From: Planctomycetaceae bacterium
GTDB lineage: Bacteria > Planctomycetota > Planctomycetia > Planctomycetales > Planctomycetaceae
Direction of reading: 5' to 3'
Length of the DNA: 48,323 nucleotides
Assembly: GCA_900299185.1 (NCBI GenBank)
Contig: OMIV01000217.1
Location: forward strand, 1-48,323
Shown: piece by piece, positions 1-17,066 of the stretch
How the letters are laid out: every line of letters begins with the position of its first letter
Position numbering within the stretch: the stretch's first letter is position 1
The notes under the pieces: generated by a model
What the model saw: the letters and a program-made list of their open reading frames with translations, nothing else
The model's database searches: none
What the model was told of the DNA's origin: nothing
Program-made: the position numbers and the translations under genes

Positions 1-45
1 ACACCTAAGCCTTCGTCGGCAGCGTCAGATGTGTATAAGAGACAG
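1..45 (+). other. Illumina Nextera adapter (synthetic, not genomic)
   Basis: Positions 13-45 match the Nextera Read 1 transposase adapter, which ends in the 19-base mosaic end (27-45). Positions 5-12 (ctaagcct) match, from memory, a standard Nextera i5 index (S508/N508), and 1-4 (acac) match the end of the P5 primer. The order P5 tail, index, Read 1 adapter is that of a sequencing library molecule. Any protein read through it gains the well-known artefact tail SYTHLTLPTKA on the minus strand, or MCIRDR / MYKRQ starts on the plus strand. Annotation should begin at 46. Confidence 0.98.
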
Positions 46-12348: not shown

Positions 12349-14454
12349 TTACTTCGAACTCTGTAAGGTCATGTTTGAGAGATAACCGCGTTGCGTGGAA
12401 CGACAGAGTTCGATCAGTTCGTACGCAGATTCCAAGACGTCAACAGCGTCCGACGAATCGCTGACGGACGCTTCCAGCGCGGCGGCTTGATTCGTGATTT
12501 GATCAATTCCGTGCTGAGACGCCGTGGATTTCAAACGCGCCGCTAGAGCCTTCAGCAAGTCGACATCCTGCTTATCGATCGCGTTGACGAGACGTTCAAT
12601 CTGCGAGCCAATGTCGCACGCAACGTCGCGAGAAACTCGCAGTTCCAGGCTGTCATCCGAACTGCGACGACGTGCTGATACCGCTTGAATGAAGCGTTCA
12701 ACAACTTGCGGATCGAATTGCGATCCGGCGCACTTACGCAGTTCCTCAAATGCTTCGGTATCACTTCGGGCCGAGCGATAGACACTGTCGTGAGTCATCG
12801 AGTCGAAGGCATCGGCAACAGCGAGGATCCTCGCGCCCATGGGAATGTTTTCGGCGGTCGGCAAGTGTGGCTTCTGCGGATTGCCCGCGAAGAATGCTTG
12901 TCGGTTTTCAACGATGGCTTGAAGCGTGTCGTTAGCAAACGACGCACTGAGAATCTCTGCTCCAATCGCTTCGTGCTGCCGCATCATCTCCCACTCGACG
13001 ATCGAAAGCTGACCGCGTTTGAGCAAGATCGAATCGGGAATGCCGACCTTCCCGATGTCATGCAACAGAGCCGCCATTTCGAGTAAGTAGCATTCGCGCA
13101 TCGACATCACGGACTCAGCGGCAATCACGCATAGATCGGCCACTCGGCGACAGTGAGCTGCCGTCGGATAGTGCCGACAAGCGAGTGCTCCCAGGAGCGC
13201 GTTGACGGCTCGGTACGGAATCGAATCTTCCTTTTCGGAAGTCTTCTTGGCGGCGTTCTCGGTGGGCTTAGTGCGCGAGATCTTGGACTCATCCACGATG
13301 AGATCTTCCGGCACGTTATCGAACCGAACCACTTGATTTCGGCCATTTCGCTTCGCGACGTACAAGCACTTATCAGCTTGATCAAGCATCGCCTGGGCAT
13401 CATTTGCCCCCAACGATTTGGACGACACGCCGATACTGGCGGTGATAGAGAGACTCGGAAACTGGAGCGCGGCGATGGCGACTCGAAGTCGCTCGCCGGT
13501 AACGGCTGCTTCATCGATATTGGTATGAGGCAAGAGGACGGCGAACTCTTCACCACCGAAGCGGCAAACCAGGTCGCCCAGTCGCACCGTTTGACGGAGC
13601 GACGCAGCCACGCCCTTCAACACTTCATCTCCCATCGCGTGGCCGTGCGTGTCATTGATCGACTTGAAGAAGTCGATGTCGACCATCAAGCACGCCAACG
13701 GATGCTCGTGCCGATTGCATTGCTTCCAATTGGCTTCGAACTGATTGAAGAACGAGCGGCGGTTCAAACACTCGGTCAGAGGGTCCGTCGTTGCCAAGCG
13801 TTCGAGTTCCAAGTTTTGATGTCGAATGGCATCACTGGTCTCGCGGAGCTGCTCCAGCGCGTAATGCAGCTCCTTCTTCTTTTGCTCGAGTGGCGTGACG
13901 TCTTCCAAACTGGTCAGCACACCTTGGCAACGATTCTTGTCATTGAAGACCGGGGCCGAGTTCACGACGAACGTGCGACGGATGTCGTCGCTGACTTGCA
14001 AATCAATCAGCACACCCAGCTTGGCCTGTTTGTCTTGGTAGGCTTCTCGCCACGGTGACGAGTCCAACTTGCGAGCCGTCATGTCATCTTTATTACGCCA
14101 CGGCAAGTCTTCGATGTATTGGCCCATCAAGGCATCTGACGTTCTGCCGATGTGCCGCGTAAAAGCTTCATTAGCCAACACGATGCGTTGCTTGTCGTCC
14201 AAGATCAACAAGCCTTCGGTCAGTGCATCGAGCGCGGAACGCACGCGAGTCGGCACGACCTTCGAGGGATCAAGCTGCCTCAACACACGCTTGAGGAAGA
14301 GGTAGTACCCAATCGATCCAACGCAGCCCATGTAAGCCACCAGGCGGATCAGCGGATCTTCCAACCAACCCCAGATGCCCGGTGAAACCACTGGTTTGAA
14401 GTAGACCTCAACCGTGCCCCACGGCTGATTGCCCGCCGCGATCGGCACGAACAT
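12349..14454 (-). CDS. PAS-GGDEF-degenerate HD-GYP-HPt-like signalling protein (C-terminal part of a split gene)
   Basis: This 701-residue frame is the downstream part of a sensor gene broken by an in-frame TAA at 14479-14481. Visible modules: end of a periplasmic sensor (1-21), a membrane helix (about 36-57), PAS (about 70-190), a short coiled coil (190-218) and GGDEF (220-380) with an intact GGEEF (300-304) and inhibitory-site RxxD (RLGD, 291-294). HD-GYP-like follows (415-590) with HDIGK (465-469) and QHEAIGAEIL (493-502), but the HHExxDGxGYP motif is replaced by VENRQAFFAGNPQ (515-527). The C-terminal helical domain (613-690) resembles HPt, with Ala where the phosphorylatable His should be (AARLKSTA, 638-645). 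A diguanylate cyclase output is plausible; phosphodiesterase activity is unlikely. No good ribosome-binding site precedes this ATG. Confidence 0.8.
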   Translation of the reverse strand: MFVPIAAGNQPWGTVEVYFKPVVSPGIWGWLEDPLIRLVAYMGCVGSIGYYLFLKRVLRQLDPSKVVPTRVRSALDALTEGLLILDDKQRIVLANEAFTRHIGRTSDALMGQYIEDLPWRNKDDMTARKLDSSPWREAYQDKQAKLGVLIDLQVSDDIRRTFVVNSAPVFNDKNRCQGVLTSLEDVTPLEQKKKELHYALEQLRETSDAIRHQNLELERLATTDPLTECLNRRSFFNQFEANWKQCNRHEHPLACLMVDIDFFKSINDTHGHAMGDEVLKGVAASLRQTVRLGDLVCRFGGEEFAVLLPHTNIDEAAVTGERLRVAIAALQFPSLSITASIGVSSKSLGANDAQAMLDQADKCLYVAKRNGRNQVVRFDNVPEDLIVDESKISRTKPTENAAKKTSEKEDSIPYRAVNALLGALACRHYPTAAHCRRVADLCVIAAESVMSMRECYLLEMAALLHDIGKVGIPDSILLKRGQLSIVEWEMMRQHEAIGAEILSASFANDTLQAIVENRQAFFAGNPQKPHLPTAENIPMGARILAVADAFDSMTHDSVYRSARSDTEAFEELRKCAGSQFDPQVVERFIQAVSARRRSSDDSLELRVSRDVACDIGSQIERLVNAIDKQDVDLLKALAARLKSTASQHGIDQITNQAAALEASVSDSSDAVDVLESAYELIELCRSTQRGYLSNMTLQSSK

Positions 14455-14478
14455 ATGAGTCTCGGTGGACTTGCCATC

Positions 14479-14796
14479 TTACGGCGGATGCCACAGCGCG
14501 TGATGGTCACCGACTTCCAGCTTCAGTTGGCCAGCGACGGTGCGCACGCCGATGGATCGGATGTCGGAATTCCGCGAGGCGACGGCTTTCAGTCCGGCTT
14601 CCAGCGTCTTCGCATCGTCCTTCATGACCAGCAACGAGAAGTTGATGGCGATGGACTCGCACAACTTCGCTCGTTCGGACATCACGATATTGCGAGGGTC
14701 GACGATAATGCCGAACGCGCGGGCCACCAGCAGACTGCTGACGGTCAGACTGACCAGGCACAGAACGACTCGGACGGTTGTTGAAATGCGTTTCAT
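14479..14796 (-). CDS. N-terminal fragment of the split GGDEF sensor
   Basis: The 105-residue fragment begins at the ATG at 14794-14796, with GGAG seven bases upstream. It contains a membrane helix (about 8-30: VVLCLVSLTVSSLLVARAFG) and most of a periplasmic domain ending VGDHHALWHPP, then TAA. It is in exactly the same frame as the GGDEF gene downstream. Eight codons separate the TAA from that gene's ATG, and they read DGKSTETH, continuing naturally into MFVPIAAGNQPWGTVEVYF. The periplasmic sensor therefore spans the stop. Alone the fragment would be a membrane stub. The full gene (12349-14796) would encode about 815 residues. Confidence 0.75.
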   Translation of the reverse strand: MKRISTTVRVVLCLVSLTVSSLLVARAFGIIVDPRNIVMSERAKLCESIAINFSLLVMKDDAKTLEAGLKAVASRNSDIRSIGVRTVAGQLKLEVGDHHALWHPP

Positions 14797-14964
14797 GATA
14801 AGGCTCCAACCTTGTCTATAGGTCGGAACCGACATGAAGGACCGAGAAGTCAGCTCGTCAGGGCCGAAGGTGCCGCGAGTTGCTGAGAGCTTGTGACGGT
14901 TGTGTGGATTGCAAGCACAGCAATGACTGAGTCAGCTGAGAGCGTTCTCACTCTGAATGACGTC

Positions 14965-15030
14965 TCACGCCGAGGCGCAGAGAAGAACGAGACGACTCGC
15001 ATTCTCTGCGTTCTCCGCGCCTCGGCGTGA
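14965..15030. repeat. Inverted repeat (CTCTGCGTTCTC type)
   Basis: The left arm tcacgccgaggcgcagagaa and the right arm (reverse complement tcacgccgaggcgcggagaa, then cgcagagaa) pair over about 20 bases with an internal offset, enclosing about 20 bases. It belongs to the same family as the element at 17412-17476: both contain TTCTCTGCGTTCTC-like cores. It lies between the split sensor gene and the 3' end of the uxaA-type gene, where it may also act as a transcription terminator for neither or both; that is inference. Confidence 0.7.
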
Positions 15031-15056
15031 TGCTCGCTGACTTCCCTCGTCGCGGC

Positions 15057-16610
15057 TTAGGTCATCGGGCCGATCCTCCACGGAGCGAACTCTTCGTCGC
15101 CGATTCCCTGAGCTTCGCTCTTGGTCTTCTCTCCACCCGCGACACTCACGATCTTGTCGAAGATCTCCTTGCCAACTTCTTCGACCGAGGCGCCGTCCAA
15201 GATCTTGCCCGCGTTGATGTCCATGTCATCGATCATGCGGTCATACATCACGGTGTTGGTCGCGACCTTGATGGTCGGCACAGGCTTGATGCCCAAGCAG
15301 CTTCCTCGACCCGTTGTAAAGACAATGACATTCGAGCCGCCGGCCACCAGACCCGTCACGCTGACGGCATCAAAGCCGGGAGTGTCCATGAACACGAAGC
15401 CCTTTTGCTTCACGATTTCGGCATAGTTCACGACGCCCTTCAGCGCCGTGCTGCCGCCCTTGGCCACCGCTCCCAGAGACTTCTCATAGATCGTCGTCAA
15501 GCCGCCCTTCTTGTTGCCGACGGACGGGTTGTTATCGACGGTCGCTCCGAACTTGCCGCAGTAGTCCTTCCACCAATCGATAAGGTCCACAATCTTCTGT
15601 CCGACCTCTTTCGAAACCGCGCGGCGCGTCAGCAGATGCTCGGCGCCGCAGATCTCAGGCGTCTCGGCCAAGATCGAAGTGCCGCCGTGCGCGACCAACA
15701 AGTCACTCGCAATGCCCAACGCCGGATTCGCAGTGATGCCGCTGTTACCGTCGCTGCCGCCGCAGTTCGTGCCCAGCATGATTTCCGAAACTGGCACCGG
15801 CACGCGACGCACGTTGTTGACCTCGGGGAGCATGTCACGAATCACCGCCGTGGCTTTGTCGACGGTCTTGCGCACTCCACCCACGTCTTGAATATTCATG
15901 ACGAGCGGCTGAGCGGGCTCACCTTCGCCCGGCATCCTCAACTGAGCGAGCCCGTAGTTCTCGGCCAAGAACGATGCTTGCCCGGACTCGCAGCCCAAGC
16001 CCAGCACCACATACGCCGAGATGTTGGGATGCTTCGCAAAGCCCGCGAGCGTTCTCGACAGCAGCAGATGCTCTGGCCCACCGACATCGAAAGCACATCC
16101 GCCTTTGTGAGTCAGCGCGATCACGCCGTCGATGTTGGGGTACTGTTCGAGCAACTTCTTTTCGAAGTTCGCCACGACGTACTTGGAAGTCGTCGCCGAG
16201 CAATTCACGGTGCTGATCACGCCGATGTAGTTGCGAGTCGCCACTCGGCCATCGGGTCGCCGGTAGCCCATGAAGGTCCGACCCGTGATTGGTGTTGGAT
16301 CAGGCGGCACTGCGGTACTGAAAGCGTAGTCGAGCGTCAGTTCGCCCAGCGTCACGTTATGAGTATGCACCCAACGTCCCGGCTCGATCGTGCCCTTCGC
16401 ATAACCAATGACCTGACCAAACTTGCGAATCGGCTGCCCGTCCTCGATACGGATCGTCGAGATCTTGTGACCTTGCTCAATCGCTTCGCGAGCCACGAAC
16501 GATCGCCCATTGGAAGTCAGCTCGACACCTTCCGGGACTCGACGCTTCGCGACGGCAATGTTGTCAGTGGCATGCAGAGTCAAAATCAAATCAGCGGTCG
16601 CAGTAGTCAC
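15057..16610 (-). CDS. uxaA: UxaA-family altronate/galactarate-type dehydratase
   Basis: The 517-residue protein has an N-terminal SAF domain (about 1-90, with HKISTIRI and HTHNV) and a large UxaA catalytic region (about 110-510). Family blocks include GYRRPDGRVATRNYIGV, ALTHKGGCAF, LGLGCES, LGTNCGGSDGNSGITANPA and FTTGRGSCLG. These enzymes use iron to dehydrate sugar acids such as D-altronate or galactarate in the cytoplasm. Length is close to UxaA (about 495) and GarD (about 523), so the substrate cannot be fixed. The start is a GTG (16608-16610) with AAGGA seven bases upstream. It lies 54 bases downstream of the small SmpA-like gene. No other sugar-acid genes are nearby. Confidence 0.88.
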   Translation of the reverse strand: MTTATADLILTLHATDNIAVAKRRVPEGVELTSNGRSFVAREAIEQGHKISTIRIEDGQPIRKFGQVIGYAKGTIEPGRWVHTHNVTLGELTLDYAFSTAVPPDPTPITGRTFMGYRRPDGRVATRNYIGVISTVNCSATTSKYVVANFEKKLLEQYPNIDGVIALTHKGGCAFDVGGPEHLLLSRTLAGFAKHPNISAYVVLGLGCESGQASFLAENYGLAQLRMPGEGEPAQPLVMNIQDVGGVRKTVDKATAVIRDMLPEVNNVRRVPVPVSEIMLGTNCGGSDGNSGITANPALGIASDLLVAHGGTSILAETPEICGAEHLLTRRAVSKEVGQKIVDLIDWWKDYCGKFGATVDNNPSVGNKKGGLTTIYEKSLGAVAKGGSTALKGVVNYAEIVKQKGFVFMDTPGFDAVSVTGLVAGGSNVIVFTTGRGSCLGIKPVPTIKVATNTVMYDRMIDDMDINAGKILDGASVEEVGKEIFDKIVSVAGGEKTKSEAQGIGDEEFAPWRIGPMT

Positions 16611-16664
16611 AGTGAGTCCTTTTGGGGTGATGTCAGAGAAAATACTCAGGCTTTGAAACGATCG

Positions 16665-17066
16665 TTAACGAATGGCTGCGGAGGACGCGGCTCCGCGATT
16701 CACCGGATGGTCGTCCTTGCCCTTGTAGCGGTTACTAAGCGATACGAGGTGATCTCCTTGGAAGACGAGTTCGGGAAGATCTTCTTTCGCGTACCTCCAA
16801 AGCTCGCGATCGGCCGCGTCCTTTGGTGAGAGGGCATCGACTCGATAGGGCTGCCCCATAATCGTGAGCACTTCGTTCTTCGTCATATTCCATCGAAGCT
16901 GATACGACCTTGGCGCGGGGTTATCGAGACGCAGGTAGATCCAAATGCAGAACAATCCGACGATGACACCCGTCGGTATCCGCAAGAGAACTCGCAGTGA
17001 AGACAGCCAAGGCACTTCAACTCGGGGAATATGGCTCGCGGGAGTCTTTCGATTGAGCAGAGACAT
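16665..17066 (-). CDS. Small membrane protein with SmpA/BamE-like domain
   Basis: The 133-residue protein has one membrane helix (about 27-45: RIPTGVIVGLFCIWIYL) and then a domain with MTKNEVLTIMGQP, ELWRYAKE and LVFQGDHLVSL. That is the pattern of SmpA/OmlA/BamE-like domains (MTxxEVxxxxGxP ... WxY ... VxFxxxxV). There is no lipobox, so it is not a lipoprotein like true BamE. The ATG at 17064-17066 has no strong ribosome-binding site. It lies immediately upstream of the uxaA-type gene and may be transcribed with it, but no functional link is obvious. Confidence 0.65.
   Translation of the reverse strand: MSLLNRKTPASHIPRVEVPWLSSLRVLLRIPTGVIVGLFCIWIYLRLDNPAPRSYQLRWNMTKNEVLTIMGQPYRVDALSPKDAADRELWRYAKEDLPELVFQGDHLVSLSNRYKGKDDHPVNRGAASSAAIR

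Follow-up and report, generated by a model that had tools for sequence, protein, structure and literature searches.

The locus studied here raises the question why a gene for a conserved signalling protein should be broken by a stop codon, and whether this stop is a mutation, a recoding signal, the border between two genes or an error of the draft sequence. The window (the whole stretch of DNA that was analysed, 48,323 nucleotides) is the complete contig C217 in a Planctomycetaceae draft genome of 383 contigs and 7.87 Mb. On its minus strand a TAA at 14479-14481 interrupts one reading frame, the translation of 14835 to 12349, and is the sole interruption there. Upstream of it lies an ORF of 118 codons at 14482-14835 (14479-14835 if the stop is counted), downstream one of 701 codons at 12349-14454, and the TAA and both ORFs share the same register and strand. 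The original prediction was that an in-frame TAA splits a GGDEF sensor gene of about 815 residues, and our analysis agreed with it on both the split and the length.

The start of this gene is likely the second ATG of the longest ORF, at 14794-14796 and thirteen codons in, which gives 815 codons, since a Shine-Dalgarno-like GGAG (14804-14807, minus strand) is found at a normal distance, 8-11 bases upstream, and the homologues begin at about this ATG. Duplex energies, calculated with an E. coli-like 16S tail, were -5.6 for the ATG at 14796, -2.4 for the one at 14835 and, for the ATG that opens the 701-codon ORF, -3.0. Counted from 14796, the frame begins with a stub of 105 codons (14482-14796, minus strand) that covers the first membrane helix, visible as a hydrophobic stretch, and the first half of a Cache-like sensor, to which the model assigns helices and the first two strands. 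The TAA is codon 106; in the sensor model it sits in a variable loop linking strand 2 to strand 3. From there eight sense codons, DGKSTETH (14455-14478, minus strand), lead to the next in-frame ATG, and the homologues have aligned residues at this bridge. The internal-start ORF (12349-14454, minus strand) then supplies, in 701 amino acids, the rest of the sensor, a second membrane helix, PAS, GGDEF and HD domains and an Hpt-like tail, and it terminates with a TAA of its own.

Pfam domains were called on the read-through frame. The order of the encoded protein is a membrane anchor, a Cache-like periplasmic sensor, the second membrane helix (14275-14355; model helix 148-174), PAS (13897-14247; PF00989, 2.4e-09), GGDEF (13333-13794; PF00990, 1.8e-45), a diverged HD (12703-13128; PF13487, HD_5, 2.4e-23) and the Hpt-like tail (12415-12606; PF01627, 23 bits, below the cut-off of 24.6), all on the minus strand. 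The active site GGEEF and the RxxD inhibitory site (RLGD) are intact, and with its active-site motif and full domain the protein is, by sequence, a predicted GGDEF diguanylate cyclase, a type of enzyme that produces cyclic di-GMP, a messenger molecule of bacteria. The HD domain has HDIGK and is without HHExxDGxGYP, the motif of HD-GYP phosphodiesterases; this motif is absent as well from the aligned orthologues having an HD domain, some of which keep HH. The Hpt-like tail has Ala in the place of the phospho-accepting His. In the region 12415-13128 (minus strand) the loss of HHExxDGxGYP and that of the Hpt His are both seen in aligned orthologues too, as a family-wide change; G044 is an exception in that its Hpt column shows His.

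Taken by itself, the upstream ORF of 118 codons matched no Pfam family. A structural model of the sensor, made with AlphaFold2 together with nine relatives (mean pLDDT 79.2, pTM 0.61), contains the membrane helix, two helices, four strands and the second membrane helix. In this model the stop corresponds to residue 106. Strand 2 (91-95) and a short helix (98-101) precede it, and strand 3 (114-121) follows. The predicted fold resembles Cache or extracytoplasmic PAS sensors, among them WalK and CitA; the compact single-domain matches align 89 to 114 residues at Z scores of about 9 to 11, although the identity in those rows is low (8-19%). In Foldseek no library match reached E <= 0.001, the best E being 1.9e-03. 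A single modelled fold spans the stop, in line with the earlier view that the DGKSTETH bridge completes one sensor domain.

Near-full-length orthologues were found in nine of the 58 other genomes searched, so the gene is patchy, and the holders among the planctomycetes include Rhodopirellula sp. bin.212 and Neorhodopirellula pilleata. A search with the sensor matched 49 of 170 family genomes, a count that takes in the window's own genome and the histidine-kinase paralogues. We aligned 23 orthologues and two histidine-kinase paralogues. At the stop site the frame is open in all 23 aligned orthologues and in two more that were checked separately (G085 and G135), as expected for a gene split by a nonsense change. 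The orthologues carry E, L, S, G, V, D, K, W, T or A in this column, with L in the nearest one, G141, and a gap in G065, while the Trp before the site and VPI...WG after it are largely kept. Even G171, with a shorter frame of 541 amino acids and no HD match, is open across the site. The same-genus genome G001 yielded a histidine-kinase paralogue and no orthologue in the search. When eight neighbouring genes of the window were compared with 20 loci, two of them paralogue loci, no neighbour matched, and orthology therefore rests on the tree and the domain order.

These orthologues bear directly on the reading that two real genes happen to share one frame. It draws on the start codon present in both ORFs, but the parts were separate genes in none of the 25 orthologues checked and one sensor fold spans the stop, and we regard this reading as refuted by the orthologues. 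Since homology continues unbroken over the stop in every one of the 23 aligned orthologues and one predicted fold spans it, the split is not a matter of chance: the two ORFs are one former gene of 815 codons, from 12349 to about 14796. Annotation of this draft genome would give two separate proteins for it. A change from CAA to TAA had been proposed as the origin of the stop. This gained no support, because the site lies in a variable loop and no orthologue row has Gln there; Gln and His occur in the two histidine-kinase rows only, which are irrelevant to this gene. With a variable column and no Gln in the orthologues, the earlier codon cannot be inferred.

A read-through product had also been suggested, and programmed read-through or recoding of UAA would fit with the conservation of both parts. 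The evidence on decoding points the other way. TAA ends this very gene, and it ends 51 of 160 sampled long ORFs, next to 60 with TGA and 49 with TAG, which speaks against reassignment of UAA in this genome. No stop-reading anticodon was found in the 43 typed of 44 tRNA matches; the list is not complete, as scoring covered 150 of 213 candidates and tRNAs for Trp and Tyr are missing from it. The tRNAs were Rfam matches typed by ARAGORN, and one at a contig edge was uncalled. TAA, which ends this gene and many others, is a normal stop here, and termination at it is expected. No examined relative has a stop at the site of 14479-14481. A survey of in-frame stops in prokaryotic genes describes comparable cases, in which a stop likewise stands inside an otherwise conserved frame, and only stops common to at least two genomes were kept in it, a rule that served to exclude sequencing errors (PMC7918605). 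The stop of the window is present in one genome only and would, by that rule, have been left out. Taken together, we consider read-through very improbable, and the earlier suggestion of such a product unsupported.

Lesions in relatives were looked at in the same way. A first search flagged TGA in the matches of G171, G135, G085, G071 and G074. For G171, G135 and G085 no stop was present inside the aligned stretch. At L167 (G071:C19) the frame changes around query residue 133-139, and L168 (G074:C471) has a TGA at query residue 208; both matches are limited to the sensor-PAS part and end at residue 326, like that of the histidine-kinase paralogue. As the lesions of other genomes sit at other places, there is no shared, programmed stop. 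The orthologue in G031, which is not in the alignment, is decayed, with sensor and PAS unmatched, two frame changes and the GGDEF-HD part in three frames. This copy lies at L047:6001-7409 (G031:C457), and its last part is about 80% identical to G096. Four members of the same genus have intact copies (G094, G096, G097, G098). The decay in G031 shows that real loss occurs in this family, or that drafts err there too, and it left the odds of the explanations unchanged.

We then estimated the age of the lesion. In a maximum-likelihood tree of 25 rows, with G171 left out, the window protein groups with G141 as its sister (support 99/98; the two are 59% identical), and the branch lengths are 0.38 for the window and 0.45 for G141. 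After the stop, none of 85 invariant positions, as defined on 22 reference orthologues without G171, was changed in the window protein; the intact controls had 0/85 (G141 and G094), 2/87 (G007 and G015), 3/88 (G018) and 1/86 (G027) changed. In relative-rate comparisons of this part with nine outgroups, window-specific changes were fewer than G141-specific ones in seven of nine (for example 59:70 with G094) and more in two (64:59 with G015, 55:53 with G113). The stub of the window is 47.6% identical to each of G007, G015 and G094, and the corresponding values for G141 are 44.8, 38.1 and 48.6%. The relative-rate counts in the stub went both ways (15:14, 16:11, 11:14, 9:19, 12:14, 12:9, 13:12, 10:10, 9:6). 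At its most lenient, a rough bound puts free evolution below about 9% of the branch, a value that presumes zero selection after the stop and fails if the C-terminal part is still made. By branch length, invariant columns and stub identity, relaxed constraint was thus not detected in either part, and the lesion is young or not real. An old pseudogene was ruled out by the branch length and the invariant columns. The like branches, the unchanged invariant positions and the likeness of the stub mean that selection has maintained the frame until recent times or does so even now, or else that the stop is not real.

We favour a recent point nonsense mutation in a formerly intact PAS-GGDEF-HD gene with a Cache-like sensor and a membrane-bound product, to which we give about two chances in three. 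One frame, intact orthologues, no other lesion and constraint up to recent times are all established by the comparisons above. Two points temper it: the undecayed parts are equally expected from a consensus error, and constraint on the stub is weakly tested, as the stub holds a single invariant column. The mutation may be fixed in the sampled strain, or the consensus may have picked up a polymorphism. The cell can probably do without this gene, which is probably also lost readily, since the same genome has six or more further GGDEF loci (six other GGDEF matches were found), the search of G001 found no orthologue and the copy in G031 is decayed.

The most serious competitor, a possible though clearly less probable one, is an error of consensus or assembly in this metagenome-assembled genome, with an intact gene in the living cell. 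The draft state of the genome, in 383 pieces, and the lack of decay in both parts are in keeping with it. An untrimmed Nextera adaptor at window 13-45 is present in 33 exact copies in the assembly; 18 of these fall within bases 1-64 of their contig, and the remaining 15 are on the opposite strand. The adaptors show incomplete cleaning and are uninformative on a base 14 kb inside; the stop lies that deep within the contig, far from the adaptor, and the surrounding frame is otherwise clean. Single-base substitution errors are also rare in short-read consensus sequences, which weighs against such an error. At window 1-45 the adaptor adds the peptide VSYTHLTLPT to the end of an ORF at 5-619.

Additionally, we searched for further split genes in a sample of 337,238 bases including the window, about 4% of the genome. 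A first scan, in which the frames were not weighed against each other, was replaced by a later one. It was found that 61 same-frame stops had a coding signal on both sides, and in eight of the 61, the stop of the window among them, the signal was also present immediately behind the stop (score at least 0.2). The Pfam scan covered three of the seven others, L106:15320 partly; the remaining four candidates are L100:14657, L098:15900, L105:12514 and L116:14331. No family was found for two of the three scanned candidates. A TPR protein at L116:16168-16989 (plus strand) is cut by an in-frame TAG at 16699. TPR_16 matched weakly across this TAG (22.8 bits, under the cut-off), and a homologue without the stop was found in one other genome, G013, of the 39 searched. 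The likeness of this TPR gene to the cyclase gene counts in favour of a consensus error, and as it looks broken in a like manner, the cyclase gene may not be alone in having such a lesion or error. The locus looks like an ordinary young nonsense mutation or a draft-genome base error, and not like a new way of reading genes. As such it is an ordinary finding of little significance in itself. It cleanly illustrates how a gene looks shortly after a nonsense change, or when such a change is shown in error, with conserved halves and no second lesion.

If the nonsense mutation is real, translation would now halt after 105 residues, half-way through the sensor. Because the stop falls between strands 2 and 3 of the model, the stub would be without half the sheet and, on this model, could not complete it. 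A fraction of the ribosomes may reinitiate 24 bases downstream, at the next ATG, and make a one-helix diguanylate cyclase without the sensor, which by the model would have neither the first membrane helix nor the other half of the sensor sheet. A stub together with an internally started protein had been anticipated, and this is a fair expectation, although the internal-start product is a guess, with a weak GAG upstream of its ATG and a duplex energy well short of that at 14796. Since GGEEF and RxxD are intact, such a protein could act as an unregulated cyclase. Thirteen of the 23 orthologues have the internal Met as an ordinary residue, so it was not made for the split.

Split cyclase genes are known from Shigella flexneri, where dgcM, dgcQ, dgcN and dgcE are nonsense-split. 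In a study of these genes, c-di-GMP rose on expression of dgcE, dgcQ or dgcN and fell on that of dgcM (PMC11327459). For dgcM as well as dgcQ its results report two products, in agreement with a stop and an adjacent Met, whereas its discussion has a full-length protein for dgcQ and dgcN, so that the paper is divided on dgcQ (PMC11327459). As in the window, the stops there lie upstream of an intact GGDEF, and for dgcM and dgcQ the study lists a Met three positions past the stop; however, host and gene are different, and those stops were confirmed by genome sequencing, whereas that of the window is known from one draft assembly (PMC11327459). Short-gap reinitiation is regarded as frequent in prokaryotes, and in E. 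coli transcripts over 75% of the distances between cistrons are below 30 nt (PMC5972666).

With these precedents, an ATG within reach of reinitiation and intact GGEEF and RxxD sites, the split might have been selected, the stop freeing a sensor-less, constitutively active one-helix cyclase by internal initiation or reinitiation. We find this improbable, as the stop is confined to one genome, the internal-start Met occurs also in intact orthologues, the Shine-Dalgarno at the internal ATG is weak, and the gene is patchy across genomes and decayed in G031. Should the stop prove real and the C-terminal part be produced, the gene would be a distant added case for the idea of nonsense mutations freeing cyclases from their sensors.

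The same genome also encodes a hybrid histidine kinase paralogue of 917 amino acids (G000:C325; L095:4388-7138, minus strand), whose frame is intact. It shares the sensor and PAS region of the window gene (37% identity over query 15-345) but carries HisKA, HATPase, receiver and Hpt domains where the window gene has GGDEF-HD, and its nearest row in the tree is the G001 protein at C54. One sensor type is thus connected to two kinds of output, a cyclase gene and a hybrid histidine kinase. Elsewhere in the window, a 600-codon open frame at 15027-16829 (plus strand) runs antisense to an altronate dehydratase-like gene at 15057-16610 (minus strand) and is probably a codon-usage shadow.
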